From: Roseivivax jejudonensis
GTDB lineage: Bacteria; Pseudomonadota; Alphaproteobacteria; Rhodobacterales; Rhodobacteraceae
Direction of reading: 5' to 3'
NCBI RefSeq assembly: GCF_900172265.1
Contig: NZ_FWFK01000006.1
Coordinates: 62,001-126,000 of the forward strand
DNA: 64,000 nucleotides
Below, in pieces: positions 29,914 through 64,000 of this stretch (its first letter is position 1; every line of letters starts with the position of its first letter). Under the pieces are notes generated by a model. The model ran no database searches. It saw nothing but the letters and a program-made list of their open reading frames with translations, and was not told where the DNA came from. The translations under genes were made by a program, and so were the position numbers.

Positions 29914-31707
29914 TCAGGCGGCGCCCTTGGTGTTGCGCTTGACCTCCTTCTCGCGGCCCTGGCGCGGGTCGATGTGCACGTCGACGAGGCAGGGGCGGCC
30001 GGCACGGAGCGTGGCGACGGCGCTCTGCATCGCGACCTCGAGGCCGGCGAGATCGGTGACCGGGCCGATCGCCTCGACCCCCTGGCCGCGGGCGAGGGCG
30101 GCGAGGTCCGGGGCGGGGCCGTCGATCCGCTGGCCGACCCAGGCGTTCGCGGGGTTGCGGCCGCGCACGCGCGCCACGTTCTCCTGGTGCAGCTCGTCGT
30201 TGAAGTAGCTGCGGTTGTTGGCGACGAGGAACAGCGCCGGGATGCGATACTTCGCGGCGGTCCAGAGCGCGTTGATGCTCATCAGCGTGTCGCCGTCGCC
30301 GAGCGAGCCGACCACCAGCCGGCCGCTGTCGCGCAGCGCGAGCGCCGCGCCAATGGTCAGGCCGGGGCCCGAGCCGATGCCGCCGCCGCCGTCCTTGCCG
30401 AGGTAGTCGAGCGGGTGGGTGTGCGGCAGGATGTCGACGGGAAAGCCCCGCGCCAGCGCCGAGAAGGTGATCGGCTGGCCGTCGGCGGCGGTCTTGAGCG
30501 CGCGGGCCACGTCGCGGTTGGTGAGCGTGGTGCCGTCCCCCTCGGCCGGGGGGGCGACCTCGGGCATCGCCGGGCGGCGCGGCGCGCCCTCGGGCAGCGC
30601 GGCCAGAAGCGCGGCGACCGCGCTGTCGGACGACACGGCAAGCTCCACGTCCACGGGCGGGAGCGCGAAATGCTCCTGGTTCCAGCCGGAGTGAAGCTGG
30701 TGGTCGAGGCTCGCGTGCACGATGGCGACGTGGTCGGGCGGCGTGCCGTAGGCCTGCTTCAGCAGCCCGCCGAGATCGGTCCAGCCGAGCGACACGATCA
30801 GGTCGGCCTCCTCCAGCACCGCGCGGGCGGGGGCCGAGAGCTTGTTGAACGGCGGGCCCGCGTGCAGCGGATGGGTCGTCGGGACCATCGCGCCGGTCTT
30901 GAGATCCGACAGCATCGGCGCGCCGAGCCGTTCGGCCAGCGCGACGCGGGCGTCCATCGCGGCCTCGGTGCGGGCGCCGCGCCCGAACAGCAGGACCGGC
31001 CGTGCCGCGCGGGAGATCGCCGCGACGGCCCGGTCCAGCGCGTCGGGGTCCGGCGCGGTGTCGGCCGGCGGCGCGTAGCGCGCGGGATCGGGCAGGGTGG
31101 TGCCCGCGGGCAGCGGCGCCTCCTGGTCCGAGGCGTCGAGATTGATGTAGACCGGCCCGCCCGGCGCGGTGTTCGCCGCCTTCCAGCCGCGCAGCATCGC
31201 CTCGGGCGTGGCGAGGGCCGAGGCCGGCTGGTCGTCCCACTTGATGAAGTGGCGCACCAGCGCCGCCTGGTCCTGCGTGGTGTGCAGCCAGTCGATCCAG
31301 GGGCGCCGCTCGGTCGCGTCCATCGGCCCGGTCGCGCCGAGGATGAGCATCGGCGCCCGGTCGGCGAAGGCGTTGAAGATCGCCATCGTGCCGTGCATCA
31401 GCCCGACATTGGAGTGCAGCGCCACCGCCATCGCGCGGCCCGTCGCCTTGGCGTAGCCGTGGGCGATGGCGACGGCATGTTCCTCGTGCAGGCAGACCAG
31501 CATTTCGGGGCGCTCGTTGCCGAGGTGGTTCACCAGGCTGTCGTGCAGGCCGCGGTAGCTGGCCCCCGGCGTCAGCGCGATGAACGGGATGCCGAGCCGG
31601 CGCAGCATCGCCGCGGGAATGTCGGACCCCCATGACAGCGAATCGTCGATCGGTCCCTCGACCGGTTCGGCGCGCCAGTCGGGGGGCGGAAAATCGGTGC
31701 TGTCCAT
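29914..31707 (-). CDS. Thiamine diphosphate-dependent enzyme (decarboxylase/synthase family)
   Basis: A 597-residue three-domain ThDP enzyme like acetolactate synthase or benzoylformate decarboxylase. The pyrimidine domain has the activating Glu in LVCLHEEHAVAIAHGYA (about 68-84); the pyrophosphate domain has the ThDP motif GDGDTLM...ANNRSY (about 490-522). These enzymes decarboxylate 2-oxo acids and may ligate the resulting carbanion. Start 31707 follows GAGGAGGAG. It is divergent from the bicupin-EutA operon across a promoter with two palindromes, so the two probably belong to one pathway. The N-terminal extension (about 25 residues) is longer than usual. Substrate unknown. Confidence 0.85.
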   Translation of the reverse strand: MDSTDFPPPDWRAEPVEGPIDDSLSWGSDIPAAMLRRLGIPFIALTPGASYRGLHDSLVNHLGNERPEMLVCLHEEHAVAIAHGYAKATGRAMAVALHSNVGLMHGTMAIFNAFADRAPMLILGATGPMDATERRPWIDWLHTTQDQAALVRHFIKWDDQPASALATPEAMLRGWKAANTAPGGPVYINLDASDQEAPLPAGTTLPDPARYAPPADTAPDPDALDRAVAAISRAARPVLLFGRGARTEAAMDARVALAERLGAPMLSDLKTGAMVPTTHPLHAGPPFNKLSAPARAVLEEADLIVSLGWTDLGGLLKQAYGTPPDHVAIVHASLDHQLHSGWNQEHFALPPVDVELAVSSDSAVAALLAALPEGAPRRPAMPEVAPPAEGDGTTLTNRDVARALKTAADGQPITFSALARGFPVDILPHTHPLDYLGKDGGGGIGSGPGLTIGAALALRDSGRLVVGSLGDGDTLMSINALWTAAKYRIPALFLVANNRSYFNDELHQENVARVRGRNPANAWVGQRIDGPAPDLAALARGQGVEAIGPVTDLAGLEVAMQSAVATLRAGRPCLVDVHIDPRQGREKEVKRNTKGAA

Positions 31708-31902: not shown

Positions 31903-33111
31903 ATGCCGCACGATCTGGACGGTGCGCTGCACTGGCACGAGCCGACGAAGGGCGAACGCGCGGGCTTCGGCAAGTTCGGCCAGCCGCAATCGGACTACGA
32001 CCGGTTCATGGAAGAGGACGGCGTGCCCGTCTTCCGCGGCGTCGGAATCGAGAAGGTGCAGAACCTGCCGCTGCACCCCTGGCCCCGGATGGGCGGGCGC
32101 GGACATTACATCCAGCTGCACGGCACCGAGGGGAAGTGGGGCAACTACGTCGTCGAGGTGCCGGCGGCCGGCGCGCTCAACGTCGAAAAGCACATCTACG
32201 AGGAGATCTACCTCGTGGTCGAAGGGCGCGGCGCGACCGAGGTCTGGCTCGAGGAGGGCGGCCCGGTGCACACCTTCGAGTGGCAGGAGGGCTCGCTCTT
32301 CTCGATCCCGGTCAACGCCTACCACCGCATCGTCAACGCGACCAATTCGCCGGCGCTGCTGCTGGGCGGGACGACGGCGCCGAACCTGATGAACCTGATC
32401 GGCGACACGAAGGCGATCTTCGAGAACCCGTTCAAGTTCACCGACCGGTTCTCGGGCGATCCGGACTTCTACAAGCCGAACGACGATCTCGAGCCGGACC
32501 CGATCCGCGGGCTCGCCATGCGGCGCACCAACCTCGTGCCGGACGTGATGAACTGCGAGCTGCCGCTCGATAACCGCCGCTCGCCGGGGTACCGCCGGGT
32601 GGAGCCGTTCATGACCGGCAACAAGTTCTACCTGTGGATCGGCCAGCACGAGACCGGCAAGTATTCCAAGGCACATGCCCACACCTCGGCGGCCGTGCTC
32701 GTCTGCGTGAAGGGCAAGGGCTACACCTACACCTGGCCCGAGGAGTGCGGCGTGAACCCGTGGCAGGACGGCCACGGCGACAAGGTGAAGCGGGTCGACT
32801 ACGAGCCCGTGGGACTCGTGTCGGCGGCGCCGGGCGGCGCGCGCTGGTATCACCAGCACTTCAATACCTCGAACGAGCCGTTCCGCCTGTCGGCGTGGTT
32901 CGGGCCGAACCACCCGAGCCTCGTGACCGGCCTACCGCCGGGCGAGAAGCAGATCGACTACACCGCGATGGACGTCACCGAGGGCGGCACCTCGATCCCC
33001 TACTGGATGGAGGATCCGCACATCCGCGCCGAGTTCGAGGCGCATATCGCCCGCAACGGCGGCGAGACGCGGATGGATCCGGCGCTTTACGACAAGCCAG
33101 AGGGCGCGTGA
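31903..33111 (+). CDS. Bicupin protein with HQHFN signature (bicupin 1)
   Basis: A 402-residue protein with two cupin barrels. The first (about 85-165) keeps His/Glu in VEKHIYEEIYLVVEGRG and a His in IPVNAYHRIV; the second (about 245-350) has HAHTSAAVLVCVKGKG, where the usual Glu is replaced, and WYHQHFNTS. The HQHFN string recurs in the three other cupins of this window. Bicupins include gentisate dioxygenase and other metal-dependent enzymes; what this one does is unknown. ATG 31903 follows GGGAGGAG. Its stop overlaps the start of the EutA-like gene, so cupin and ATPase are made together. Confidence 0.85.
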   Translation: MPHDLDGALHWHEPTKGERAGFGKFGQPQSDYDRFMEEDGVPVFRGVGIEKVQNLPLHPWPRMGGRGHYIQLHGTEGKWGNYVVEVPAAGALNVEKHIYEEIYLVVEGRGATEVWLEEGGPVHTFEWQEGSLFSIPVNAYHRIVNATNSPALLLGGTTAPNLMNLIGDTKAIFENPFKFTDRFSGDPDFYKPNDDLEPDPIRGLAMRRTNLVPDVMNCELPLDNRRSPGYRRVEPFMTGNKFYLWIGQHETGKYSKAHAHTSAAVLVCVKGKGYTYTWPEECGVNPWQDGHGDKVKRVDYEPVGLVSAAPGGARWYHQHFNTSNEPFRLSAWFGPNHPSLVTGLPPGEKQIDYTAMDVTEGGTSIPYWMEDPHIRAEFEAHIARNGGETRMDPALYDKPEGA

Positions 33112-34586
33112 ACCGGGCGGCCGATATCGGCGATCCGGAGGCGGGCGGCCGGGTCTTCTTCTCGCAGGCGGGACGCAGCCTGATCGAGGAGGACCAGCTC
33201 GAGCTGACGAGCGTCGGCGTCGATATCGGCTCGTCGACCTCGCACCTTCTGGTGTCGACGCTGCTGCTCGACCGGCTCGATACCCGCTACGTCGTGGTCG
33301 AGCGCAACGTGCGATTCGAATCCGAGATCCTGCTGACGCCCTATGCCGAGGGCAACACCATCGACGCCGAGGCGCTGGGGGCGTTCATCGAGGCGCAGTA
33401 TGCCCGGGCGGGCATCACGCCCGAGGAGATCGACACCGGCGCGCTGATCCTGACCGGGGTCGCCGCGCGGCGGGCCAATGCCCGCGCCATCGGCGAGCTG
33501 TTCGCGGCGCAGGCCGGAACGTTCGTGGCGCTGAGCGCGGGCGACGGGCTCGAGACGATGATGGCCGCGCACGGGTCGGGCGCGGTCGCGCTGTCGAACC
33601 GGGGCGGCCCGGTCCTCAACATCGACGTGGGCGGCGGCACGACGAAGATCGCGCTCTGCGCGGGCGGCGACGTGGTGGCGCGCACGGCGCTCGACGCCGG
33701 CGCGCGGCTGGTCGCGTTCGACGACGCGGGGCGGATCGCGCGGCTCGAACCGTTCGGCCGGCGCCACATCGCCGATGCCGGGCTGGACGCGGGGCTCGGC
33801 GATCCGCTGGCGCCGGAGGCGCGGCGCCGCGTGGCCGAGGCGATGACCGGGTGCATCATCGACGCCGCGCAGGGCGAGGACGTGGACGGCTTCATGCGGT
33901 TGCCGCCGCTCGATGCGGCCGAGTCGCCGCGCGTCGTGCTGTCGGGCGGGGCGTCGGAATACCTCGAAGGCGCGGCGGGGCCCGCCGACGACCTCGGGCC
34001 GGAGCTGATCGCCGCGCTGGCGGCGCGGCTGGAGGCGATCGCGGCCGAGGTCGTGCCGGCGCGCCAGCGCATCCGCGCCACCGTCGTCGGCGCCTCGCAA
34101 TATTCGGTGCAGGTCAGCGGCTCGACGATCTTCCTCGATCCGGCCGACGCGCTGCCGCTGCGCAACCTGCCGGTGGTCGCGCCGAAGCTCGACCTCGGGC
34201 CCGAGATCGACCCGGACGCGGTGGCGCAGGCGGTGACCGACGCGCTCGGCCGGATGGAGATGGGCGACGGCGAAACGCCGGTCGCGGTGGCGCTGCCCTG
34301 GCAGGGCTCGGCGCTCTATGGCCGGCTGAAGGCGCTCGGCGCCGGGCTGGTCCGGGGGCTCGCGCCGCTGATCGCCGCGGGCCATCCGCTCGTTCTGGTG
34401 ATCGACGGCGACGTGGGCGGGCTCCTCGGGATGCAGATCCGGACGGAGGAGGACGTGCCGGGCGCGATCGTGTCGGTCGACGGGATCGCGCTGTCGGAGT
34501 TCGATTTCATCGACATCGGCGCGGTGATCCGTGCCACCGGGGCCGCGCCGGTCGTGGTAAAGTCCCTTCTGTTTCCGGAGGCCTGA
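33108..34586 (+). CDS. EutA-like ASKHA ATPase (reactivating-factor family), copy 1
   Basis: A 492-residue protein of the EutA family, whose characterised member reactivates ethanolamine ammonia-lyase by ATP-driven exchange of damaged adenosylcobalamin. The actin-like ATPase motifs are clear: VGVDIGSSTSHLL (about 35-47) and NIDVGGGTTKIAL (about 170-182), with a later VLSGGASEYLEG. The GTG start at 33108 overlaps the bicupin stop. No EutB/EutC or other cobalamin enzyme lies in this window; instead the partner is a bicupin, and a TctB gene follows after 3 bases. It therefore probably services a different enzyme. A paralogue with the same type of neighbour lies at 60329. Confidence 0.85.
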   Translation: MNRAADIGDPEAGGRVFFSQAGRSLIEEDQLELTSVGVDIGSSTSHLLVSTLLLDRLDTRYVVVERNVRFESEILLTPYAEGNTIDAEALGAFIEAQYARAGITPEEIDTGALILTGVAARRANARAIGELFAAQAGTFVALSAGDGLETMMAAHGSGAVALSNRGGPVLNIDVGGGTTKIALCAGGDVVARTALDAGARLVAFDDAGRIARLEPFGRRHIADAGLDAGLGDPLAPEARRRVAEAMTGCIIDAAQGEDVDGFMRLPPLDAAESPRVVLSGGASEYLEGAAGPADDLGPELIAALAARLEAIAAEVVPARQRIRATVVGASQYSVQVSGSTIFLDPADALPLRNLPVVAPKLDLGPEIDPDAVAQAVTDALGRMEMGDGETPVAVALPWQGSALYGRLKALGAGLVRGLAPLIAAGHPLVLVIDGDVGGLLGMQIRTEEDVPGAIVSVDGIALSEFDFIDIGAVIRATGAAPVVVKSLLFPEA

Positions 34587-34589
34587 GAC

Positions 34590-35084
34590 ATGTCCGAGAC
34601 CGCCCCGCGCAAGATCCGCTCGATCTGGCCGCCGCTGCTGCTGATCGCGGTGTCCGTGGGCTACGTCGTCTGGGCGCAGCGCTACGGCGCGACGCCGCGG
34701 ATGATGCCGACGATCGTCGGCGTGGCGACGGCGATCCTGTCGGTGCTCGACCTTCTGTCGCGGTTCGACAACGGGCTTGGATCGGCGCTGCGCGCCGCGC
34801 TCGGCGCGGATTTCCGCAACCGCGAGATGGCGCACGACCCGCCGCTCCGGAGCGAGGCGGCGATGCTGGGCTGGATGCTCGTCGCGATCGCGGCGGTCTG
34901 GGTCATCGGCCTGTTGCCGACGGTGCCGCTCTTCATTGCCGCGTTCATGCGGGTGTGGGGCGGGCAGTCGTGGCGCGCGTCGCTGCTGACAGCCGCCGGC
35001 GTGCTCGTCTTCGTGGTCCTGGTGTTCGAGGTGCTGCTCGACTACTCGCTCTATCGCGGCATCGTCTGGGAGACGCTGGCGTGA
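34590..35084 (+). CDS. TctB-type small membrane subunit of a second TTT transporter
   Basis: A 164-residue protein with four membrane segments and the TctB ending LLDYSLYRGIVWETLA. It directly follows the EutA-like gene (3 bases) and so is co-transcribed with bicupin and ATPase. Its TctC and TctA partners are 0.8 kb and 1.8 kb further on, beyond an oppositely oriented hydrolase gene whose 3-prime end overlaps it by 34 bases. Confidence 0.85.
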   Translation: MSETAPRKIRSIWPPLLLIAVSVGYVVWAQRYGATPRMMPTIVGVATAILSVLDLLSRFDNGLGSALRAALGADFRNREMAHDPPLRSEAAMLGWMLVAIAAVWVIGLLPTVPLFIAAFMRVWGGQSWRASLLTAAGVLVFVVLVFEVLLDYSLYRGIVWETLA

Positions 35085-35868: not shown

Positions 35869-36810
35869 ATGAGACATCTATCCCTGCTCACCGCGCTTGC
35901 CGCGCTGGTCGCCGCGCCGGCGCTGGCGCAGGACGACTGGCCGTCCGAGCCGATCACCTTCGTGGTGCCCTACAGCCCCGGTGGCGGCTTCGACGAATAC
36001 GCCCGCGCGGTCGCGCCCGAGATGGAGCGCATCCTCGGCACCGAGGTGGTGATTGAGAACATTCCGGGCGCCGGCGGCCAGCGCGGCGCCTCGACCGTCT
36101 ACCGCGCCGATCCCGACGGCTACACGATCGGGATCTGGAACGTGCCCGGCCTGACCGTGCCGCAGCTGATGGGCCAGTCGTCGGGCTACGACCTGACGGA
36201 CGTGACCTGGATCGGCAACCTCGCGACGTCGCGCTACGCGCTCGCGGTGCAGCCCGACAGCGGCTACGAGAGCCTCGAGGACCTGTGCAGCATGGGCGAG
36301 CCGTTCAAGCACTCCGATACCGGCCCGGCCTCGACCTCGTCGGTGACCGCGCGGATCGCGATGAGCCTGATCGACTGCCCGATCCAGAACATCACCGGCT
36401 ACAAGGGCTCGACCGACACGATCATCGGCCTGATGCGCGGCGAGGTCGACGCGACGATCAAGCCGATCGCGTCGCTCTACAACTACGCCGAATCCGGTGA
36501 CGTGAAGATGCTGATGACGCTCGAGGACGAGCGGTCGCTGCCGGACGTGCCGACCTCGACCGAGCTCGGCTACGAGGATTTCGCCAACTTCACCCTGCGC
36601 CGGATCGTCGGTGGCCCTCCGGGCATCCCCGCCGAGATCCAGCAGCGGCTGTCGGATGCGCTGATCGAGGCGGCCAATTCCGAGGCGGTGCAGGAATGGT
36701 CCGAGAGCTCGAACCGTCCGCTCGACCCCGTCGGCTACGAGGAGGCGTCGGCCGAGATGACCGAGCTGATGGACTTCTACACGCAGTACAAGGACGTGCT
36801 GGCCGAGTGA
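35869..36810 (+). CDS. TctC-type periplasmic substrate-binding protein (second TTT system)
   Basis: A 313-residue Bug/TctC protein with a signal peptide ending near APALAQDD (about 22) and the ligand-loop signature FVVPYSPGGGFDEYAR near 32-47; VGGPPGIPAEIQQRL is the second signature. It resembles the 10640 protein, so the two systems may take related acids. ATG 35869 follows AGAGAGGAGA. A strong terminator hairpin separates it from TctA. Confidence 0.9.
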   Translation: MRHLSLLTALAALVAAPALAQDDWPSEPITFVVPYSPGGGFDEYARAVAPEMERILGTEVVIENIPGAGGQRGASTVYRADPDGYTIGIWNVPGLTVPQLMGQSSGYDLTDVTWIGNLATSRYALAVQPDSGYESLEDLCSMGEPFKHSDTGPASTSSVTARIAMSLIDCPIQNITGYKGSTDTIIGLMRGEVDATIKPIASLYNYAESGDVKMLMTLEDERSLPDVPTSTELGYEDFANFTLRRIVGGPPGIPAEIQQRLSDALIEAANSEAVQEWSESSNRPLDPVGYEEASAEMTELMDFYTQYKDVLAE

Positions 36811-36891: not shown

Positions 36892-38397
36892 ATGGGATTT
36901 GACGCTCTACTAGACGCGCTTCTGACGGTCGCCACCGGCGGCTCCGCCATCTACGTGCTGCTGGGCGTGATGCTCGGCCTGTGTTTCGGGGTGATCCCGG
37001 GGCTCGGGGGCACGACCGCGCTGGCGCTGCTGATCCCGGTGACCTTCACGATGGAGTCGCTCGACGCGATGTACCTCGCGGGCGGGGTCATGGGGGCCAC
37101 CTCCTTTGGCGGGTCGCTGACGGCGATCCTGCTGAACACGCCGGGCACCGCGCCGAACGCGGCCACCACCTTCGACGGCTATCCCCTGGCCAAGCAGGGC
37201 AAGGCCGGCCTCGCCATCGGGGCGGCGGCCACGGCCTCGGCCTCGGGCGGGGTGCTGGGGCTGCTGACGCTGCTCCTGGTGATCCCGATCGCGCGCGATC
37301 TCGTGCTGGCCTTCGGGCCGGCGGAATTCTTTCTGCTGACGATCCTCGGCCTCGCCGCGATCGCGGTGTCGGCGCGGGGCAAGCTGTTGCGCGGGCTGAT
37401 CGCCGGGGGCGTCGGCCTGATGCTGGCCTTCGTCGGCTCCGACACGGTGTCCGGCGAGCTGCGCTTCACGCTGGGCAGCGACTACCTCTGGGACGGCATC
37501 CCGCTGGTGCCGGTGCTGACCGGGATGTTCGCGCTCAGCCAGATGATCGAGCTCGGCCTCAAGGGCGGATCGGTCGCCGCAGCGATCGAGGAGGGCCAGA
37601 CCCGCATCGCCGGCATCCGCGACGGCGTGGTGTCGGTGTTCCGGCACTGGACGGTGCTGGTGCGGGGATCGGCCATCGGCACGCTGATCGGGGCCATTCC
37701 GGGCCTCGGCGGGACGGTGGCGTCGTTCATCGCCTACACCTCGACGGTGCAGAGCTCGCGCGATCCCGAGAGCTTCGGCAAGGGCAACATCGTCGGGGTC
37801 ATCGCGCCCGAGGCGGCCAACAACGCCAAGGACGGCGGGTCGCTGGTGCCGACGGTGGCCTTCGGCATTCCCGGCAGCGCCGAGACGGCGCTGTTCCTGG
37901 GGATCCTCGTGCTGCACGGCATCGACCCGGGGCCGTCGATCCTTCTGGACAACCAGCGCGAGGTCTACGGCCTGATCGTGGCGCTGACGCTGTCGGCGAT
38001 CGGCGCGTCGATCCTCGGGCTGATCTTAGCCCGATGGCTTGTGCTCATCACCTTCATCAACGTGCACGTTCTCGTGCCGGTCGTCGTGACCGTGTCGCTT
38101 ACCGGGGTTTTCGTGCTCGAGGGGCGGATGGGCGACGTGATCCTCGCCATGGTCATGGGGATCGTCGGCTACCTGATGCTGCGCTTCGATTATCCGCGCC
38201 TGACGCTGGTGATCGCGCTGGTGCTCGGGGAAACGGCGGAGCGGTCGTTCCACCAGACCCAGATGATCAGCGACTATGATATGCTCGGCTTCATGGCGGC
38301 GCGGCCGCAATCGCTGATCCTGATCGCGCTGATCGTTCTGACGCTGCTGCTGCCGGGGCTCCGGCGGCTGCCCGTGTTCCGGAGGAAGGCCGCATGA
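36892..38397 (+). CDS. TctA-type large membrane subunit (second TTT system)
   Basis: A 501-residue protein with about 12 membrane segments; GVIPGLGGTTALALLIPVTF (about 38-57), NTPGTAPNAATTFDGYPL and the second-half IPGLGGTVASFIAY and GIPGSAETALFLGI are TctA signatures. It is the transport channel for the TctC/TctB proteins encoded upstream. Its stop overlaps the methyltransferase start (ATGA). Confidence 0.92.
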   Translation: MGFDALLDALLTVATGGSAIYVLLGVMLGLCFGVIPGLGGTTALALLIPVTFTMESLDAMYLAGGVMGATSFGGSLTAILLNTPGTAPNAATTFDGYPLAKQGKAGLAIGAAATASASGGVLGLLTLLLVIPIARDLVLAFGPAEFFLLTILGLAAIAVSARGKLLRGLIAGGVGLMLAFVGSDTVSGELRFTLGSDYLWDGIPLVPVLTGMFALSQMIELGLKGGSVAAAIEEGQTRIAGIRDGVVSVFRHWTVLVRGSAIGTLIGAIPGLGGTVASFIAYTSTVQSSRDPESFGKGNIVGVIAPEAANNAKDGGSLVPTVAFGIPGSAETALFLGILVLHGIDPGPSILLDNQREVYGLIVALTLSAIGASILGLILARWLVLITFINVHVLVPVVVTVSLTGVFVLEGRMGDVILAMVMGIVGYLMLRFDYPRLTLVIALVLGETAERSFHQTQMISDYDMLGFMAARPQSLILIALIVLTLLLPGLRRLPVFRRKAA

Positions 38398-46726: not shown

Positions 46727-47353
46727 ATGGACAAGAAGACCGACGACGCCCCGCAGGCCGAGGCCGAGACCGCCGAGGACGGCACCGAGATCGGGCCGAA
46801 GGGGTACTATCATTCCAACAAGAACCGCATCTTCGTCCGCGCGATCCAGGGCGAATACAATCTGCAGCAGAAGCTCGACGAACTGCGGGCGCAGCCGCGC
46901 GTGCGCAAGGCGCGCGAGATCAAGTTCGTCGACGGCCCGCAGGCCTACAGCCGGCACTACGTGGAGCCCAAGGACAACATCACCCAGCTGTTCCACATCC
47001 ACCTCGAGGAATACGGGCCGGGCGGCAAGAGCCAGAAGCACGGCCACGTCAACGAGGCGGCGTTCTACATCCTCGACGGCGCGGGCTACGAGATCCACGA
47101 CGAGCAGCGCTACGACTGGCAGGCCGGTGACGTGGCGATCGTGCACAACAACTGCGTGCACCAGCATTTCAACGCCTCGGACACCAAGCCCGCGCGCGCG
47201 CTCGTGCTGAAGACCAAGCCGATGTTCATGTTCATGAACATGCTCTTCCAGAAGACGGTCGAGCCGCGCTCGACCGAGCCGGCGCCCGGCGGCGAGGACT
47301 TCGAGGTCCGCGAGGAAGAGGACGATCACAACCATCCCGAGGGAGGCTACTGA
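46727..47353 (+). CDS. Single-domain cupin with HQHFN signature (first of a pair)
   Basis: A 208-residue protein with one cupin barrel (about 85-165). KHGHVNEAAFYILDGAG gives the His-x-His-x3-Glu metal set, and CVHQHFNAS the fourth ligand within the HQHFN string shared by all cupins here. An acidic/His tail (EEEDDHNHPEGG) ends the protein. Ribosome site AGAGAGGAGG is strong. The next cupin begins in its stop codon, so the two may form a heteromer equivalent to a bicupin. Enzymatic role unknown. Confidence 0.82.
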   Translation: MDKKTDDAPQAEAETAEDGTEIGPKGYYHSNKNRIFVRAIQGEYNLQQKLDELRAQPRVRKAREIKFVDGPQAYSRHYVEPKDNITQLFHIHLEEYGPGGKSQKHGHVNEAAFYILDGAGYEIHDEQRYDWQAGDVAIVHNNCVHQHFNASDTKPARALVLKTKPMFMFMNMLFQKTVEPRSTEPAPGGEDFEVREEEDDHNHPEGGY

Positions 47354-47955
47354 TGGCGTGGGGAGAGACCTCCGTCTGGATCGACGGCACCGAGAACGCG
47401 CCGCTCTACCAGGATCTGCTGGATGACGCCGCGGCGCGGCCGGCGCGCGACGCCGAGCGCAAGAAGATCATCCGCCCGAACGAGATGCCGTGGGAGATGT
47501 CGCGCCAGGGGCTTCTGAAGCATCTCATCAACGAGCAGATGAACACGCGGATGGAGACGGTCGACGCCTACATGCAGATCGTTCCGCCGGGATCGAAGTC
47601 GGGCAAGCACCGGCACCTCGCGGAAGAATGCCTCTACGTGCTGGAAGGCCGCGGCTACGACCTGCACCAGGATTGCGACGTCGAGATCACCGACGAGTAT
47701 TTCTGGAAGCCGCAGGAGGAGGTGAAGCGGTTCGAGTACGAGGCGGGCGACGTCGTCTACGTGCCGCCGAACACGATTCACCAGCACTTCAACGCCGATC
47801 CCGACCGGCCGCTTCGGCTGATCTCGACGATCAACCGCATCTTCAAGCAATGCGGGCTGAACGATCTCGAGCAGATCGAGAACGCGCCGGAATACGATCC
47901 GTCGCTGACGCTGACCCCGGAGGTCATCCGCGGCTTCCTGCGCGGCGAGCGCTGA
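47353..47955 (+). CDS. Single-domain cupin with HQHFN signature (second of a pair)
   Basis: A 200-residue cupin. KHRHLAEECLYVLEGRG carries His-x-His-x3-Glu and NTIHQHFNAD the fourth His, so the metal site looks complete. Unlike its neighbour it has an extended segment between the motifs (about 112-135). It starts one base inside the upstream stop (TGATG), so the two cupins are coupled. A GC-rich hairpin region (47961-47994) follows. Function unknown; see the bicupins at 31903 and 62238. Confidence 0.82.
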   Translation: MAWGETSVWIDGTENAPLYQDLLDDAAARPARDAERKKIIRPNEMPWEMSRQGLLKHLINEQMNTRMETVDAYMQIVPPGSKSGKHRHLAEECLYVLEGRGYDLHQDCDVEITDEYFWKPQEEVKRFEYEAGDVVYVPPNTIHQHFNADPDRPLRLISTINRIFKQCGLNDLEQIENAPEYDPSLTLTPEVIRGFLRGER

Positions 47956-52085: not shown

Positions 52086-53060
52086 TCAGGCGGGCAGGCG
52101 GGCGCGGCAGGCCGACAGGCCCGCCCGCAGCGCGTCGGGGTCGAGGTTGCGGCCGATGAAGACGAGCCGCGAGCGATGCGGCGGTGGCGTTTCCCAGGGC
52201 GTGGTGAAATCGCCCTCGAGCAGCATGTGCACCGCCTGCACCACGAGCCGTCGCTCGTCGCCGGCGGCCCAGAGGATCCCCTTGGTGCGCAGGATGTCCT
52301 CGCCGCGGACGCTCAGAAGCTCGGTCAGCCAGGCCTCCACCGCGACCGGGTCCAGCGGCGTGTCCTCGGTCAGCGACACCGACCCGATGCCCGAGACGTG
52401 GTCGTGCCCGTGGGCGTGGTCGTGGTCGTCCAGTGGCTCCAGCCGCTCGGCGACCCGGTCGAGGTCGAAGCCGTGGGTGTCGAGAAGCGCGCCCGGATCG
52501 ACGCGTCCGCGGTCGATCCGGTGGATCGGTGCGAAGCGGTTGAGCGCGCGCAGGCGGGTCTCGGCGGTATCCGGGTCGGGCGCGTCGGACGCCTTGTTGA
52601 GCAGGATGACGCTCGCCAGCGCGGCCTGCTCGGCGGCGTCGCGGTGCTCCGCCACCTGTGCGGCGACGTGGTGCGCGTCGGCCACCGTGACCACGGCGTC
52701 GAGCCGGCACTGCGCCGCCAGCACCTGGTCGGCGGTGAAGGTCTGGATGACCGGCGAGGGATTGGCCACGCCGGTCGTCTCGATGACGATCCCGTCGAGC
52801 TCCGCCGCGCGGTCCAGGAGCCGCCGCAGCGTGCGGATCAGGTCGCCCCGCACGACGCAGCAGATGCAGCCCGAGCTCAGCTCGATCAGCTCCTCGTCGC
52901 CGCTCTCGATCAGGTCGCCGTCGATCCCCGCCTCGCCGAACTCGTTGACGATCACCGCCAGCCGGCGCGTGTCCTGCGCGAGCAGGTGATTGACCAGCGT
53001 CGTCTTGCCGGCGCCGAGATAACCGGTCACCACCGTGACGGGGAGGCGGGCATCCTCCAC
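52086..53060 (-). CDS. CobW/COG0523 family GTPase (metal chaperone type)
   Basis: A 324-residue G3E GTPase: Walker A GYLGAGKTT (about 13-21), the metal-binding CxCC motif in SSGCICCVV (about 63-71), Walker B region IVIETTGVANP, and a guanine-specificity segment LLNKAS where Asp is expected after NKx. A His/Asp-rich loop DDHDHAHGHDH (about 207-217) adds metal-binding capacity. The family delivers zinc, iron or cobalt to target proteins. The GTG start at 53060 is 4 bases after the zinc dehydrogenase stop, so it may load that enzyme or another metalloenzyme of the pathway. Confidence 0.88.
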   Translation of the reverse strand: MEDARLPVTVVTGYLGAGKTTLVNHLLAQDTRRLAVIVNEFGEAGIDGDLIESGDEELIELSSGCICCVVRGDLIRTLRRLLDRAAELDGIVIETTGVANPSPVIQTFTADQVLAAQCRLDAVVTVADAHHVAAQVAEHRDAAEQAALASVILLNKASDAPDPDTAETRLRALNRFAPIHRIDRGRVDPGALLDTHGFDLDRVAERLEPLDDHDHAHGHDHVSGIGSVSLTEDTPLDPVAVEAWLTELLSVRGEDILRTKGILWAAGDERRLVVQAVHMLLEGDFTTPWETPPPHRSRLVFIGRNLDPDALRAGLSACRARLPA

Positions 53061-56503: not shown

Positions 56504-57322
56504 TTACCTCCCCGGCTGTCCCTTGATCTGGCGCGCGTCGCGCACGTCGCCGGCGCATTCGGCCAGCGCGTCGTGCATGATCTGCGCCACGTTGGCGTAG
56601 CCCTTGGCCTCCTGGCCGACGAGGCTCGCGTCGTACCCAACCGCGGCCTGCGCGAGCCGCACCCGGCCGTCGAGCCAGGGCCCGCCGCCGAAGCCGCCGA
56701 TCACCGGGATCGACACCGCCTCGACGACCTTGGGCCCGACGACGGGCCCCGAATTGGTGAAGTCGAGCAGGACCGCGCCGGCGGCTTCGAGCATCCGGGC
56801 CTCCTCGATCATCCGCGCCTCCATCCCGGCGACGAGGTCGGACCCGGCCTTGGCCTGGTTCTCGTAGGGGATGCCCATCGCCAGGGCGGTCTGCGGCGTC
56901 AGGCCGAACTGCGCCCAGACCGGGATGCCCGCGCGGGCGAGCGCGCTGACCGCCTCGGGGTAGTCCGCCGCGCCGTCGAGCTTCAGCAGGTCGATGCCGG
57001 CCTCCTTGACCAGCCGGATGCCGGCGCGCACGGCGGCGTCGACGCCCTCCTGCAGCGGACCGTAGGGAAAGTCGGCGGAGAGCAGCGCGCGTTTCACGCC
57101 GCGGCGGGCGGCCTTGGTGACGATCACCATCTCGTCCATGGTGATCTCGAACATGGTGTCGCGGCCCCAGAGGTTCTTGCCCACGGTGTCGCCCACCGAC
57201 ACGATCTCGGCGCCGATGCCGTCGGCGATCGCGGCCATGTGGGTGTCCCAGCAGACGACGCCGAAGATCTTCTGGCCGTCGCGCTTCATCTGGTGCAGCC
57301 GCGGGATGGTGACGCCGCTCAT
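56504..57322 (-). CDS. PanB-like lyase/aldolase (ketopantoate hydroxymethyltransferase superfamily)
   Basis: A 272-residue protein aligned by eye with PanB: VSVGDTVG matches the magnesium Asp region (VGDSLG), SADFPY matches LADLPF, and FGLTPQ matches LGLTPQ. But the residues equivalent to the metal-ligand Glu (KxEGG, here KLDGA) and the catalytic Glu (here LLDFTN) are Asp. It is therefore a diverged member, probably an aldolase or lyase on a catabolic intermediate rather than a pantothenate enzyme. Its start overlaps the decarboxylase stop (ATGA). Confidence 0.78.
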   Translation of the reverse strand: MSGVTIPRLHQMKRDGQKIFGVVCWDTHMAAIADGIGAEIVSVGDTVGKNLWGRDTMFEITMDEMVIVTKAARRGVKRALLSADFPYGPLQEGVDAAVRAGIRLVKEAGIDLLKLDGAADYPEAVSALARAGIPVWAQFGLTPQTALAMGIPYENQAKAGSDLVAGMEARMIEEARMLEAAGAVLLDFTNSGPVVGPKVVEAVSIPVIGGFGGGPWLDGRVRLAQAAVGYDASLVGQEAKGYANVAQIMHDALAECAGDVRDARQIKGQPGR

Positions 57323-60328: not shown

Positions 60329-62122
60329 TCACCGGTCGCTTCCGTCGTCGTCGTGACCGTGATGCGCATGAGAGTGGCCATGCGCGGGGTCGTGGTCGTG
60401 ATGATGGTGGTGGTGCCCGTGGTCGTGGTCATGCTCGTGGTCGTGATGATGGTGATGGTGCCCGTCACCGTGGTGGTGATGGCCGTGGCCGGCGGCGGGC
60501 GCCGGCTGGAACTGGATGCGCTCCTGCCGGCGGGGGCCGCGCGGATCCTCGGAGAACAGCAGCGATTTCACCGTGACCGGCACCGTGTAGGAGGGCAGGC
60601 GCACCTTGCCGAGGTCGATGTAGTCGAAATCGCGCAGCTCGATCCCGTCTAGGATGAGCAGATCGTTGTTGAGCCCGATCTCGTCGCGCAGGATGCCGCC
60701 GAGGGTCTGGGCGATGTCGCCGTCGATCATCACGTGCAGCGGACGCCCGGCCTCGAGCCAGGGCCGCATCGCCGCGACGATGCCGTCGGCGAGCGCGCGG
60801 ATCGCGCGGTATTCCGGCGGGCCGTTGAACTCGAAGGCGAGCGCGACCTCGTTGTCCGACGGCGCGAGATCGAAGGACTCGAAGTGCTGCAGGATCGCGC
60901 GGGCGATCGGCGGCGCGGTGGGCGCCTGCGACAGGTCGATGTCGGGCTTGAGCACCTGCATCGACCGGCGCGGCAGCACCCGGCCCGGTCGGGTGATCGT
61001 CGAGGTCTGGCCCGAAAGCTGGACCGAGTATTCCGACGCGCCGAGCGCGGTGGCGCGGATGCAGGCGGCGGCGTGCATGTAGGGCGCGCCGAGATCGCCC
61101 GCGTCGATGCGCGCGCGCAGCCGCTTGCCGAGCGGCAGGCCGATGTCGCCGAAATCGCGGGTCTCGCGCCCCGACACGTATTCGCCCACGCCGCCCGACA
61201 CCACGATGCCGTCGATATCGCCGATGTCGTCGGGAATGTCGGTCAGGAACAGCTCGGCCACGTCGCGCGGCAGCGGCCGCGCGGTCAGCGCGGTGACCAC
61301 GATATCGGCCATGCGCGTAGCCACGCGGTCGAGCGCCTCGGGCGGGCAGGGCGCGCCGACGGCCAGGTCGAGCCCCGCCGCGGCGGCGTGGTGGCGCCCG
61401 GTGGGCTCCGCCCGGGTGACGCGGCCGTCCTCGGTCGCGATCAGCCGTCCGCCGACGCCGAGCGCGGCGGTCCAGACGACCCGCCCGGCCTCGCACAGGG
61501 CGAGCTTCGTCGTGCCGCCGCCGATATCGACGTTGAGGATGCGGTTGCCGCCCTCGTGGCTGGTCTTGGCGGCGCCAGAGCCGTAGGCGGCGAGCATCGC
61601 CTCCATGTGGTTGCCGGCGGTCGCGGTGACGAAGTCGCCACCCTTTTCCGACACCACGTCGGCGATCGCCTCGGCGTTCTGGCGGCGCAGCGCCTCGCCG
61701 GTGAGGATCACCACCCCGGTGTCGATGTCGGAGGGCCGGACCGCGGCCTCGGCATAGGCGTCGTCGATGATCGCGCCGAGCGCGGCGGCGTCGATCTCGG
61801 TCTCGCCGGCATAGGGCGTGAACGACACCGGCGACTCGTAGGCGGTCTGCCGGTCGACGATCACGTAGCGCGAGGCATGGCTGTCGGCGACGCGCTGCAG
61901 GTGGATCGTGGAAAAGATCACCTGCGTGCCGGCGCTGCCGATGTCGATCCCGACCGAGGTCAGCGCCACGTTGTCGCGCTGCCAGATCGGATTCTCCTCG
62001 AGCGGGCCGGGGTCGATGTCGTCGTGATCGTGGTCGGCGTCGTCGCCATGCTCGTGAGGGTAGAAATCCCCGAACATGTGGTCGTCGATCGTGTGCCTGG
62101 GGGGACGCTTCTCGTCGGCCAT
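60329..62122 (-). CDS. EutA-like ASKHA ATPase with histidine-rich tail, copy 2
   Basis: A 597-residue EutA-family protein, longer than the 492-residue copy at 33108. ATPase motifs: VGIDIGSAGTQVIFS (about 60-74), NVDIGGGTTKLAL (about 202-214), VVSGGVGEYVSG. It adds an N-terminal acidic/His segment (HEHGDDADHDHDD, about 23-35) and a tail of 53 residues of which 28 are His, broken by Asp, Gly and Glu. Such tails bind zinc, nickel or cobalt in metallochaperones. ATG 62122 follows AGGAACAGTTG. It is divergent from bicupin 2; no ethanolamine ammonia-lyase or other cobalamin enzyme is present in the window. Probably a reactivase or metal-loading ATPase. Confidence 0.85.
   Translation of the reverse strand: MADEKRPPRHTIDDHMFGDFYPHEHGDDADHDHDDIDPGPLEENPIWQRDNVALTSVGIDIGSAGTQVIFSTIHLQRVADSHASRYVIVDRQTAYESPVSFTPYAGETEIDAAALGAIIDDAYAEAAVRPSDIDTGVVILTGEALRRQNAEAIADVVSEKGGDFVTATAGNHMEAMLAAYGSGAAKTSHEGGNRILNVDIGGGTTKLALCEAGRVVWTAALGVGGRLIATEDGRVTRAEPTGRHHAAAAGLDLAVGAPCPPEALDRVATRMADIVVTALTARPLPRDVAELFLTDIPDDIGDIDGIVVSGGVGEYVSGRETRDFGDIGLPLGKRLRARIDAGDLGAPYMHAAACIRATALGASEYSVQLSGQTSTITRPGRVLPRRSMQVLKPDIDLSQAPTAPPIARAILQHFESFDLAPSDNEVALAFEFNGPPEYRAIRALADGIVAAMRPWLEAGRPLHVMIDGDIAQTLGGILRDEIGLNNDLLILDGIELRDFDYIDLGKVRLPSYTVPVTVKSLLFSEDPRGPRRQERIQFQPAPAAGHGHHHHGDGHHHHHHDHEHDHDHGHHHHHHDHDPAHGHSHAHHGHDDDGSDR
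60332..60490 (-). repeat. Histidine-codon low-complexity repeat in the EutA-like gene
   Basis: The sequence encoding the His/Asp tail is a run of CAC/CAT/GAC/GGC codons, giving near-repeats of GTGGTC and GATGATG on the plus strand. It is in frame and ends at the stop codon, so it is coding low complexity, prone to length change by slippage. Confidence 0.7.
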
Positions 62123-62237: not shown

Positions 62238-63353
62238 ATGAACACCCATGCGCGCGTGTCCGACCAGCTGGCCGAGAAGTTCAAGACCGAGAAGGAGACG
62301 CCCTATACGCGCTTTCTCAAGGACGAGGGTCTCGAGCTCATCAACGGCAACTACGTGCCGTCGCTGCACGAGGTCGAGCTGAAGCCGTGGGCGCGGCGGG
62401 GTGGCAACGCGGTCTTCATGAACCACGACGCCAGCCGGACGACGAACGACTGCTACGTCATGGAGATCCCCGCCGGCGGCAAGCTCGAGCCGCACCGCCA
62501 GCTCTTCGAGGAGACGGTGCTGATCCTGTCGGGCCGCGGATCGACCGTGGTGTGGGACGACAAGGGCAACCGCACCAGCTTCGAATGGGGGCCGGGCGCG
62601 ATCTTCGGGATCCCGCTCAACGCCAATCACCAGCACTTCAACGGCTCGGGCACCGAGCCCGCGCGGTATATCGGCGTGACCAACATGCCGCCGCTGATGA
62701 ACGTGTTCGAGGATCCGAACTTCCTCTTCCACACCGCCTACGACTTCGAGGGGCGGTTCTCGGGCGAGCCCGACTACTTCGCGGAGTCCAAGCAGATGCA
62801 GGGCCTGCTGCTCGAGACCAACTACGTCGCGGACGCGGTGAACCTGCCGCTGGTCGAGGCCAAGGAGCGCGGCGCCGGTGGCGGACACATCCGCTTCCAG
62901 CTCGCCAAGTGCTCGATGAACAGCCACATCAGCCAGTTCCCGGTCGGCACCTACAAGAAGTGCCACCGCCACGGGCCGGGCGCGCACGTCATCATCCTGT
63001 CGGGCGAGGGCTATTCGCTGATGTGGCCCGAGGGCGCGGAGCCCAAGCGCTACGACTGGAAGCCGGGCTCGATGATCGTGCCGCCGAACATGTGGTACCA
63101 CCAGCATTTCAATACCGGAACGACGCCGGCGCGCTATCTCGCCTTCAAGTACGAGGGCGTGGCGATCCGCAACGAACAGGGCGTGCCGAAGGCGTGGATC
63201 AGCCAGCGCATCGGCGGCGACCAGATCGACTATGCCGACGAGAGCGACCTGGTGCGGACGATGTTCGCCGACTCTCTTGCCGAGAACGGGCTCGAGTCGA
63301 AGATGGAGCCCGCCTACGAGGCCGAGAAGGCGGACCTGCCGCCCAAGGGCTGA
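62238..63353 (+). CDS. Bicupin protein with HQHFN signatures (bicupin 2)
   Basis: A 371-residue protein with two cupin barrels. First (about 80-165): LEPHRQLFEETVLILSGRG and NANHQHFNGSG; second (about 235-325): KKCHRHGPGAHVIILSGEG and MWYHQHFNTG. Both domains therefore keep the HQHFN string, and the second has His-x-His but no Glu at the usual site. ATG 62238 follows GGGAGGGAGAAG. It is divergent from the second EutA-like ATPase and precedes a Rieske oxygenase gene by 98 bases, so it may act on the oxygenase product. The reaction is unknown; gentisate dioxygenase is only a distant structural parallel. Confidence 0.85.
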   Translation: MNTHARVSDQLAEKFKTEKETPYTRFLKDEGLELINGNYVPSLHEVELKPWARRGGNAVFMNHDASRTTNDCYVMEIPAGGKLEPHRQLFEETVLILSGRGSTVVWDDKGNRTSFEWGPGAIFGIPLNANHQHFNGSGTEPARYIGVTNMPPLMNVFEDPNFLFHTAYDFEGRFSGEPDYFAESKQMQGLLLETNYVADAVNLPLVEAKERGAGGGHIRFQLAKCSMNSHISQFPVGTYKKCHRHGPGAHVIILSGEGYSLMWPEGAEPKRYDWKPGSMIVPPNMWYHQHFNTGTTPARYLAFKYEGVAIRNEQGVPKAWISQRIGGDQIDYADESDLVRTMFADSLAENGLESKMEPAYEAEKADLPPKG

Positions 63354-63451: not shown

Positions 63452-64000
63452 ATGCTGCGCAAGGAAGTCAACGACCTGCTGACCCAGACCGATCCGGGCA
63501 CCACGATGGGCGAAATGTTCCGTCAGTACTGGATCCCCGCGCTCCTGGCGCGCGAACTTCCCGAGGACGATTGCCCGCCGGTGCGGGTGAAGCTCCTCGG
63601 CGAGCGGCTGATCGCGTTTCGCGACAGCAAGGGCCGCTACGGCCTGATGGACGAGTTCTGTGCCCACCGCGGCGTGTCGCTGTGGTTCGGCCGGAACGAG
63701 GAAGGCGGCCTGCGCTGCCCCTATCACGGCTGGAAATACGACGTGAACGGGCAGTGCATCGAGGTGCCGTCCGAGCCCGAGGAATCGGGCTTCTGCGAGA
63801 AGATCAAGCTCAAGGCCTACCCGCTCATCAAGGTGGGCGACGTGCTCTGGACGCACATGGGCGACAAGGAGAACCGGCCGCCGGAGCCCGAGTGGGAGTT
63901 CGCGACCGTTCCCGAGGACCAGACCTACACCTCCAAGCGCTGGCAGGAATGCAACTGGCTGCAGGCGATGGAGGGCGGCATCGACTCGAGCCACGTGTCG
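63452..64000 (+). CDS. Rieske oxygenase alpha subunit, phthalate 4,5-dioxygenase type (cut by window end)
   Basis: The first 183 residues of a Rieske non-haem iron oxygenase; the frame runs off the window. The Rieske ligands are in EFCAHRGVSLWFG (Cys-x-His, about 69-71) and LRCPYHGWKYD (Cys-x2-His, about 89-92). The following ECNWLQAMEGGIDSSHVS is the phthalate-4,5-dioxygenase/VanA-like bridge to the catalytic domain. It would hydroxylate an aromatic acid with electrons from the 58387 reductase, possibly via the 46077 ferredoxin. ATG 63452 follows AAGGAGGAGG. Confidence 0.92.
   Translation, partial: MLRKEVNDLLTQTDPGTTMGEMFRQYWIPALLARELPEDDCPPVRVKLLGERLIAFRDSKGRYGLMDEFCAHRGVSLWFGRNEEGGLRCPYHGWKYDVNGQCIEVPSEPEESGFCEKIKLKAYPLIKVGDVLWTHMGDKENRPPEPEWEFATVPEDQTYTSKRWQECNWLQAMEGGIDSSHVS

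Follow-up and report, generated by a model that had tools for sequence, protein, structure and literature searches.

Introduction

EutA carries out the ATP-driven exchange of damaged cobalamin in ethanolamine ammonia-lyase (EutBC), and HypB, UreE, CooJ, and CobW are nickel/cobalt metallochaperones with His-rich stretches. How cupins acquire their proper metal and avoid iron is a question of current interest; gentisate 1,2-dioxygenase, quercetinase, oxalate decarboxylase, and MncA are not known to have an ATPase partner. Here, we analyze a stretch of 64,000 nucleotides from Roseivivax jejudonensis (contig NZ_FWFK01000006.1, positions 62,001 to 126,000; hereafter "the window"), in which the gene for a two-domain cupin (bicupin) twice adjoins a gene for an ATPase of the EutA family. 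The reading we favor, at somewhat short of an even chance, is that the ATPase would act as the dedicated activase of the bicupin, loading or exchanging its metal, perhaps nickel or cobalt, at the expense of ATP. Full-text searches of open-licence papers listed no title or abstract on such a pair.

Results

A bicupin gene overlaps the gene for an EutA-family ATPase

The bicupin of the first pair (copy 1, type 1; positions 31903-33111, forward strand, ATG start, TGA stop, 402 amino acids) was recognized by Pfam (Cupin_2, 9e-9, the single domain above cut-off) and by its structure model (predicted local distance difference test, pLDDT, 92.1). The type 1 ATPase (33108-34586, forward strand, GTG start, 492 amino acids; model pLDDT 84.8) matches the Pfam family EutA (PF06277) at 3e-99 over residues 32-489, which is full length. 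Its predicted fold is ASKHA, judging from the structure model and the structural matches; among its sequence matches in the PDB, no chain was named EutA. The GTG of the ATPase gene and the TGA of the bicupin gene share four bases (33108-33111), which bears out the earlier note on this DNA, where a bicupin stop codon overlapping the start of an EutA-family ATPase had been described from the letters alone.

The same note had the pairing recur at 60-63 kb. A second pair (copy 2) is indeed located there, without the overlapping arrangement: the type 2 ATPase (60329-62122, reverse strand, 597 amino acids; PF06277 at 1.7e-112), which carries HEHGDDADHDHDD as an N-terminal motif and has 28 His in its C-terminal tail, and the type 2 bicupin (62238-63353, forward strand, 371 amino acids) are, unlike in copy 1, divergently oriented and separated by 115 bases.

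Bicupin and ATPase go together across genomes

In a class-level sample of 289 evenly drawn genomes, full-length EutA was represented by 15 genes in six genomes and the bicupin was present in seven. In the seventh bicupin genome (G226), the start of the EutA gene is cut by the end of the contig, 120 bases past the bicupin. Thus, both genes occur in the same seven of the 289 genomes and nowhere else in the sample (Fisher P = 3e-14; scoring G226 as lacking EutA gives 9e-12). The other five class genomes with full-length EutA have 13 EutA loci between them, and the bicupin is a neighbor at 10 of these. A second set comprised 80 named loci, found via EutA alone and representing the best 80 of 487 relatives, skewed to type 1. 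The bicupin was the direct neighbor at 61 of these and lay anywhere in the stretch at 72. The taxa include Alpha-, Beta-, and Gammaproteobacteria, Chloroflexota, Myxococcota, and Binatota, and also one Acidobacteriota metagenome-assembled genome (MAG) and one Microbacterium. Sinorhizobium mexicanum, Phyllobacterium zundukense, and Aromatoleum toluclasticum are among the culturable carriers of the unit. Two of the stretches, which are numbered with the prefix L, place the unit in MAGs whose species labels, Bordetella parapertussis and Klebsiella pneumoniae, look doubtful (L111 and L120). On plasmids, 25 records contain an EutA relative, and bicupins occur in four of them, precisely those with the nearest EutA; these four are rhizobial, with two places each, and the other 21 have no bicupin. 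Chance neighborhood is excluded by the 61 of 80 loci, the 7 of 289 class genomes, and the plasmid pattern.

The full set of stretches held 108 EutA genes in 94 stretches (L123, the same contig as L034, was kept in these counts, in the neighbor-family counts below, and in the counts over the 80 loci). The bicupin is the direct neighbor of 79 of the 108 EutA genes and present in 83 of the 94 stretches. Seventy of these neighbors are located upstream on the same strand, six downstream, and three are divergent. The median gap of the 70 upstream pairs is 12 bases; 16 overlap, ten of them by exactly four bases (both the starts and the gaps are approximate, as genes were called by a simple script). 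The earlier note had proposed a survey of genomes with EutA-family genes lacking eutBC for cupin neighbors, with EutBC beside the unit in most relatives, or no conserved cupin association, as the refuting outcomes. Neither appeared, as the counts above and the EutB searches below (no EutB in any of the six class genomes) demonstrate.

One ATPase gene (L044:4614-8165) is preceded by three tandem bicupin genes, and four class genomes encode at least six bicupins each (scoring stopped at six candidates) versus two to four ATPases. Because bicupins outnumber ATPases in this way, one ATPase may serve several bicupins.

The ATPase belongs to the EutA family but is not EutA

An EutB search of the R. 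jejudonensis genome, which did not extend to EutC, yielded none, and the same search recovered E. coli EutB as a control. Pfam detected no B12-enzyme family in 53 of the 58 called genes of the window; the other five are a ferredoxin reductase (NCBIfam only), a cut Rieske gene, and three open reading frames below 100 amino acids, which were left unscanned. The earlier note's statement that no EutB, EutC, or other B12 enzyme is encoded in the window consequently holds genome-wide for EutB and within the 53 genes for the Pfam families, EutC not having been searched for. EutB was also absent from all six class-sample genomes with full-length EutA. In a phylum-level sample of 398 genomes, six contained EutA: five have an adjoining EutB, and the sixth, that of R. 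jejudonensis, alone has the bicupin. EutB itself was found in 79 of the 398 genomes, with EutA (E 1e-15) alongside in only five, so that most were without EutA.

The NCBIfam equivalog models for EutA match both ATPases far below their cut-off of 598 bits (267.1 bits for copy 1, 305.6 bits for copy 2). In a FastTree phylogeny, in which long branches were flagged and L123 was left out, a single branch with a local support of 98 separates six EutB-linked EutA from 103 cupin-type ATPases. Mean identity between the two groups is ∼33%, compared with 51% within the cupin type. Ten near-invariant columns are peculiar to the cupin type, whereas 58 columns with at least 97% invariance in it are common to all five EutB-linked EutA compared; these include D39, G41, D173, G175-T178, and S279-G281, some of which we take to be ATP-binding positions. 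Because the EutB, NCBIfam score, and tree tests for EutA failed, the ATPase is, as far as sequence can tell, an EutA-family protein and not EutA. That it is nevertheless an ordinary EutA serving a distant B12 enzyme, with the cupin linkage incidental, has the Pfam match of 3e-99 in its favor; we give it a negligible chance in view of the lack of EutB in six of six class genomes, the EutB adjoining all five other EutA of the phylum sample, the separate branch, and the co-occurrence with the bicupin. Since five of the six phylum-sample EutA genomes have EutB and one has bicupins, and since the cupin type ranges from Proteobacteria to Chloroflexota, the label "ethanolamine ammonia-lyase reactivating factor" (e.g., in Phyllobacterium) very likely assigns the wrong reaction to the cupin-type genes.

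The bicupin has one complete predicted metal site

Structural matches of the two-domain bicupin model include 2vqa, 5hi0, 3bu7, and 1y3t, and its predicted fold is nearest those of MncA, oxalate decarboxylase, gentisate dioxygenase, and quercetinase. Only domain 2 contains a complete ligand set, domain 1 being variable. In copy 1, H258-x-H260 and H317-Q-H319 form a predicted 3-His site, with H258, H260, and H317 presumably occupying the ligand places of the cupin motif; the place at which many cupins have Glu is mostly taken by Ala. These three His, together with H319, are kept in 84 of 90 bicupins (23 of 23 type 2, 61 of 67 type 1). The HQHFN string which the earlier note had singled out is near-invariant in its first four positions (H in 90, Q in 83, H in 89, and F in 90 of the 90 bicupins); the final N did not hold for type 1, where it occurs in 13 of 67.

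Assignment of the bicupin to a named dioxygenase family could not be established. Copy 1 matched no NCBIfam family, copy 2 only weakly matched that of 5-aminosalicylate dioxygenase (32 bits, cut-off 650), and the profile match to gentisate 1,2-dioxygenase 3bu7 was weak as well (E 1e-4, profile positions 237-299 only).

Types are matched, and one type of ATPase carries His-rich tails

Among 77 typed neighbor pairs, 65 combine a type 1 ATPase with a type 1 bicupin and six a type 2 ATPase with a type 2 bicupin; four consist of an intermediate ATPase and a type 2 bicupin, and two are other combinations. The pair in L062 mixes types, the neighbor assigned there by the gene caller belonging to another unit. 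All 13 tree members of the type 2 subclade, to which copy 2 belongs, have a C-terminal His-rich tail (4 to 29 His), and ATPases of this subclade also have an N-terminal His/Asp-rich motif. Such a tail was present in none of the 90 other aligned ATPases and in none of the six EutB-linked EutA; L043 has a His-rich start instead. When types were assigned by best match, the tail was found in 13 of 14 type 2 ATPases and in 0 of 94 others.

Nickel/cobalt transporter genes are enriched near the ATPase gene

Genes for nickel/cobalt transporters lie near the ATPase gene in 10 of the 94 stretches and, additionally, in L171. NicO follows EutA after nine bases in L038 and overlaps the stop of the type 2 ATPase gene by four bases in L109 (start as set by the caller), whereas it is 1 kb away in L079 and 5 kb away in L094 and L095. 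In Phyllobacterium (L074, L171), HoxN follows EutA after eight bases and is itself followed by nikR. In L060 and L082, HupE/UreJ and EutA are convergent, and in L071 and L088 they lie 1.8-1.9 kb apart. A profile search over all open reading frames of the stretches revealed no additional nickel/cobalt transporter genes. Against a background of 69 NicO or HupE genes across the 202 Mb of 50 named genomes, eight such genes within 0.87 Mb of EutA stretches compare with 0.30 expected (∼27-fold, P 1e-9; hits less than 1.2 kb apart were merged, the count drew on 50 of the 80 loci, and the eight hits were coordinate-matched by hand). In R. jejudonensis, the sole HupE/UreJ gene of the genome is located 2 kb past bicupin 2 (L172:2092-2691, corresponding to about 65391-65990 in window numbering and thus outside its edge), after the Rieske oxygenase gene described below; the sole NicO gene is on a different contig. 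The His-rich tails in the copy 2 subclade and the nickel/cobalt transporter genes near the unit are new observations.

Gene neighborhood

Across the 94 stretches, the neighbors include TctC-like (38 stretches) and TctA-like (18) proteins, Rieske ferredoxins (16), Rieske oxygenases (14), amidohydrolases (12), thiamine-diphosphate enzymes (9), and UbiD-family enzymes (7), the UbiD and Rieske oxygenase labels having been checked on examples. Downstream of copy 1, genes for a tripartite tricarboxylate transporter were identified by Pfam (tctB, 34590-35084; tctC, 35869-36810; tctA, 36892-38397; all forward strand), with tctB beginning three bases past the ATPase stop; they are likely involved in substrate uptake. 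Upstream, on the reverse strand, lies the gene for a thiamine-diphosphate enzyme (29914-31707), relatives of which account for the nine stretches mentioned. Such frequent linkage to tripartite tricarboxylate transporters, together with the occurrence of the ASKHA fold in PilM and MreB, would suit a role of the ATPase as a sensor or scaffold (e.g., in substrate uptake or assembly) that leaves the cupin active site unchanged. We hold this to be distinctly improbable, because the columns common with EutB-linked EutA, the ATP-binding ones included, are kept, and because the type-matched pairing and the metal-linked features point to the cupin.

Past bicupin 2, the gene of a Rieske oxygenase of the LigXa_C type (63452-64000, forward strand) is cut by the end of the window and was read whole past the edge. 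Between it and the HupE gene, L172:1447-2028 encodes a 193-amino-acid protein without a Pfam match, relatives of which occur in ten further stretches, several adjoining Rieske genes. The copy 2 cluster also contains a CobW-type GTPase with a His-rich stretch (52086-53060, reverse strand; BLAST relative in one other stretch only, L052), and an RraA-like aldolase, an alcohol dehydrogenase, and a ferredoxin reductase are encoded around it; the type 1 unit of Phyllobacterium has a similar set of neighbors. A ketopantoate hydroxymethyltransferase-family gene (56504-57322) lies within the catabolic cluster, and two single-domain cupins of ∼200 amino acids each are encoded in tandem at 46727-47955, with a 1-base overlap; these have relatives in 11 of the 94 stretches, and a similar pair was seen by inspection at L172:9059-10244.

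Because of these neighbor families and the gene sets around copy 2 and in Phyllobacterium, the context of the unit looks like the aerobic catabolism of some aromatic acid, and gene context suggests a ring-cleavage role for the bicupin. A riboflavin pathway likewise involves Rieske, thiamine-diphosphate, and cupin enzymes, and its cupin LumY is a hydratase (passages of PMC12746152, in which neither ethanolamine nor nickel appears); therefore, the bicupin need not be an oxygenase.

Discussion

If the ATPase is the metal activase of the bicupin, the following sequence of events can be envisaged. As a metalloenzyme, the bicupin would take part in the aerobic breakdown of aromatic acids, probably as a dioxygenase whose one complete 3-His site lies in domain 2. 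On binding the bicupin, the ATPase would use ATP to open or reshape it, allowing an incorrect or used-up metal to leave and the correct one, perhaps nickel or cobalt, to enter; the exchange of cobalamin by EutA would thus be transferred to a bare metal ion. In type 2 ATPases, the His-rich tails may serve as a metal store, and linked HupE/UreJ, NicO, or HoxN transporters would supply the metal. We favor this activase because it accounts for how strictly the two genes pair, for the conservation of the ATPase core, and for the His-rich tails and the transporter genes. In addition, cupins are prone to mis-metalation: the manganese cupin MncA binds iron when made in E. coli (PMC11742986), and iron gives no support to the activity of the quercetinase QueD (PMC4416304). 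Physical binding, metal transfer, metal identity, and the catalyzed reaction are all inferred from sequence. The earlier note had supposed a reactivation or metal-loading system for cupin metalloenzymes: the pairing stands, metal loading has gained support from the His-rich tails, the nickel/cobalt transporters, and NikR, and the action on the cupin is still an inference.

Several observations weigh against a metal activase for nickel or cobalt. A Glu-less site of three His is what Fe(II) oxygenases typically have, and that of the bicupin points to iron no less than to nickel or cobalt. QueD has three His and one Glu as ligands (passages of PMC4416304). In one clade, five bicupins carry Tyr and Pro where the HxH histidines would be, while the ATPase is kept (L116:6733-7956, L117:6750-7973, L121:4752-5975, L034:9944-11173, and L036:7493-8716), and in the bicupin of L125, Leu replaces the second His. 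A second bicupin is near in four of the five Tyr/Pro stretches. Type 1 ATPases, that of copy 1 included, have no His-rich tails; no nickel/cobalt transporter gene was found in 84 of the 94 stretches or within 30 kb of copy 1; and the eight transporter hits come from four lineages by our own grouping, which changes P to 2.5e-4. The chief rival is reactivation without metal choice. The ATPase would eject an inhibitor, a suicide product, or oxidized Fe(III), returning a bicupin dioxygenase to work on Fe(II), which would be closest to the function of EutA and is in line with the conserved ATPase core, with the 3-His site as in iron dioxygenases, and with the weak match to 3bu7 (E 1e-4). As it leaves the 13 of 13 His-rich tails of type 2 and the excess of nickel/cobalt transporter genes unexplained, we regard iron reactivation as unlikely.

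The pairing itself is not without exceptions, which count against an activase dedicated to the bicupin. Eight of the 80 named loci have no bicupin within the stretch, and three of the 13 loci counted for EutA in the other class genomes (L033, L038, and L041) are without one. In L033 and L038, the ATPase gene adjoins a UbiD-family gene; a single-domain cupin is encoded close by, and the stretch has no bicupin. In L041, EutA adjoins an operon for a P-type ATPase, which we read as kdp. Such loci would fit an ATPase that serves a UbiD-family decarboxylase, a Rieske oxygenase, or a thiamine-diphosphate enzyme, the bicupin being a mere pathway mate, and the first two occur in 7 and 14 of the 94 stretches, respectively. 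No candidate approaches the frequency of the bicupin (83 of 94), however, and where a class genome has an EutA locus without the bicupin (three genomes), it carries bicupins elsewhere, so that we consider service to another enzyme improbable.

A dedicated cupin ATPase, if confirmed, would answer for one group of cupins how the proper metal is obtained, and it would mean that the exchange chemistry of EutA is not tied to vitamin B12. A bolder proposal, which we put forward tentatively and with a good deal more doubt than confidence, is that EutA-family ASKHA ATPases form a new class of metal insertases, placing nickel or cobalt in bicupin oxygenases, with the tails as a store and a linked importer. 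In that case, the cupin would escape mis-metalation with iron, and an older family devoted to metal and cofactor exchange would have EutA as its cobalamin branch. The pair is also a handle on uncharacterized aromatic-acid pathways.

Compared with known systems, the bicupin shares its predicted two-domain fold with the bicupin dioxygenases and decarboxylases gentisate 1,2-dioxygenase, quercetinase, oxalate decarboxylase, and MncA, but differs from them in that its ligands are complete in domain 2 only and comprise three His, with Ala at the place of Glu. The nickel/cobalt metallochaperones resemble the type 2 ATPase in combining nucleotide binding with a His-rich extension, and the genes for nickel/cobalt transporters and, in one genus, NikR near the unit add to the likeness. 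However, HypB, UreG, and CobW are P-loop GTPases, whereas the ATPase has an ASKHA fold according to its model; the target here would be a cupin, and the His-rich extension is confined to type 2. EutA, as represented by E. coli eutA, belongs to the same Pfam family over the full length and has the 58 near-invariant columns in common with the cupin type. Where EutA has EutB as its partner, the cupin-type ATPase has a bicupin, a branch of its own, and, in type 2, a His-rich tail.

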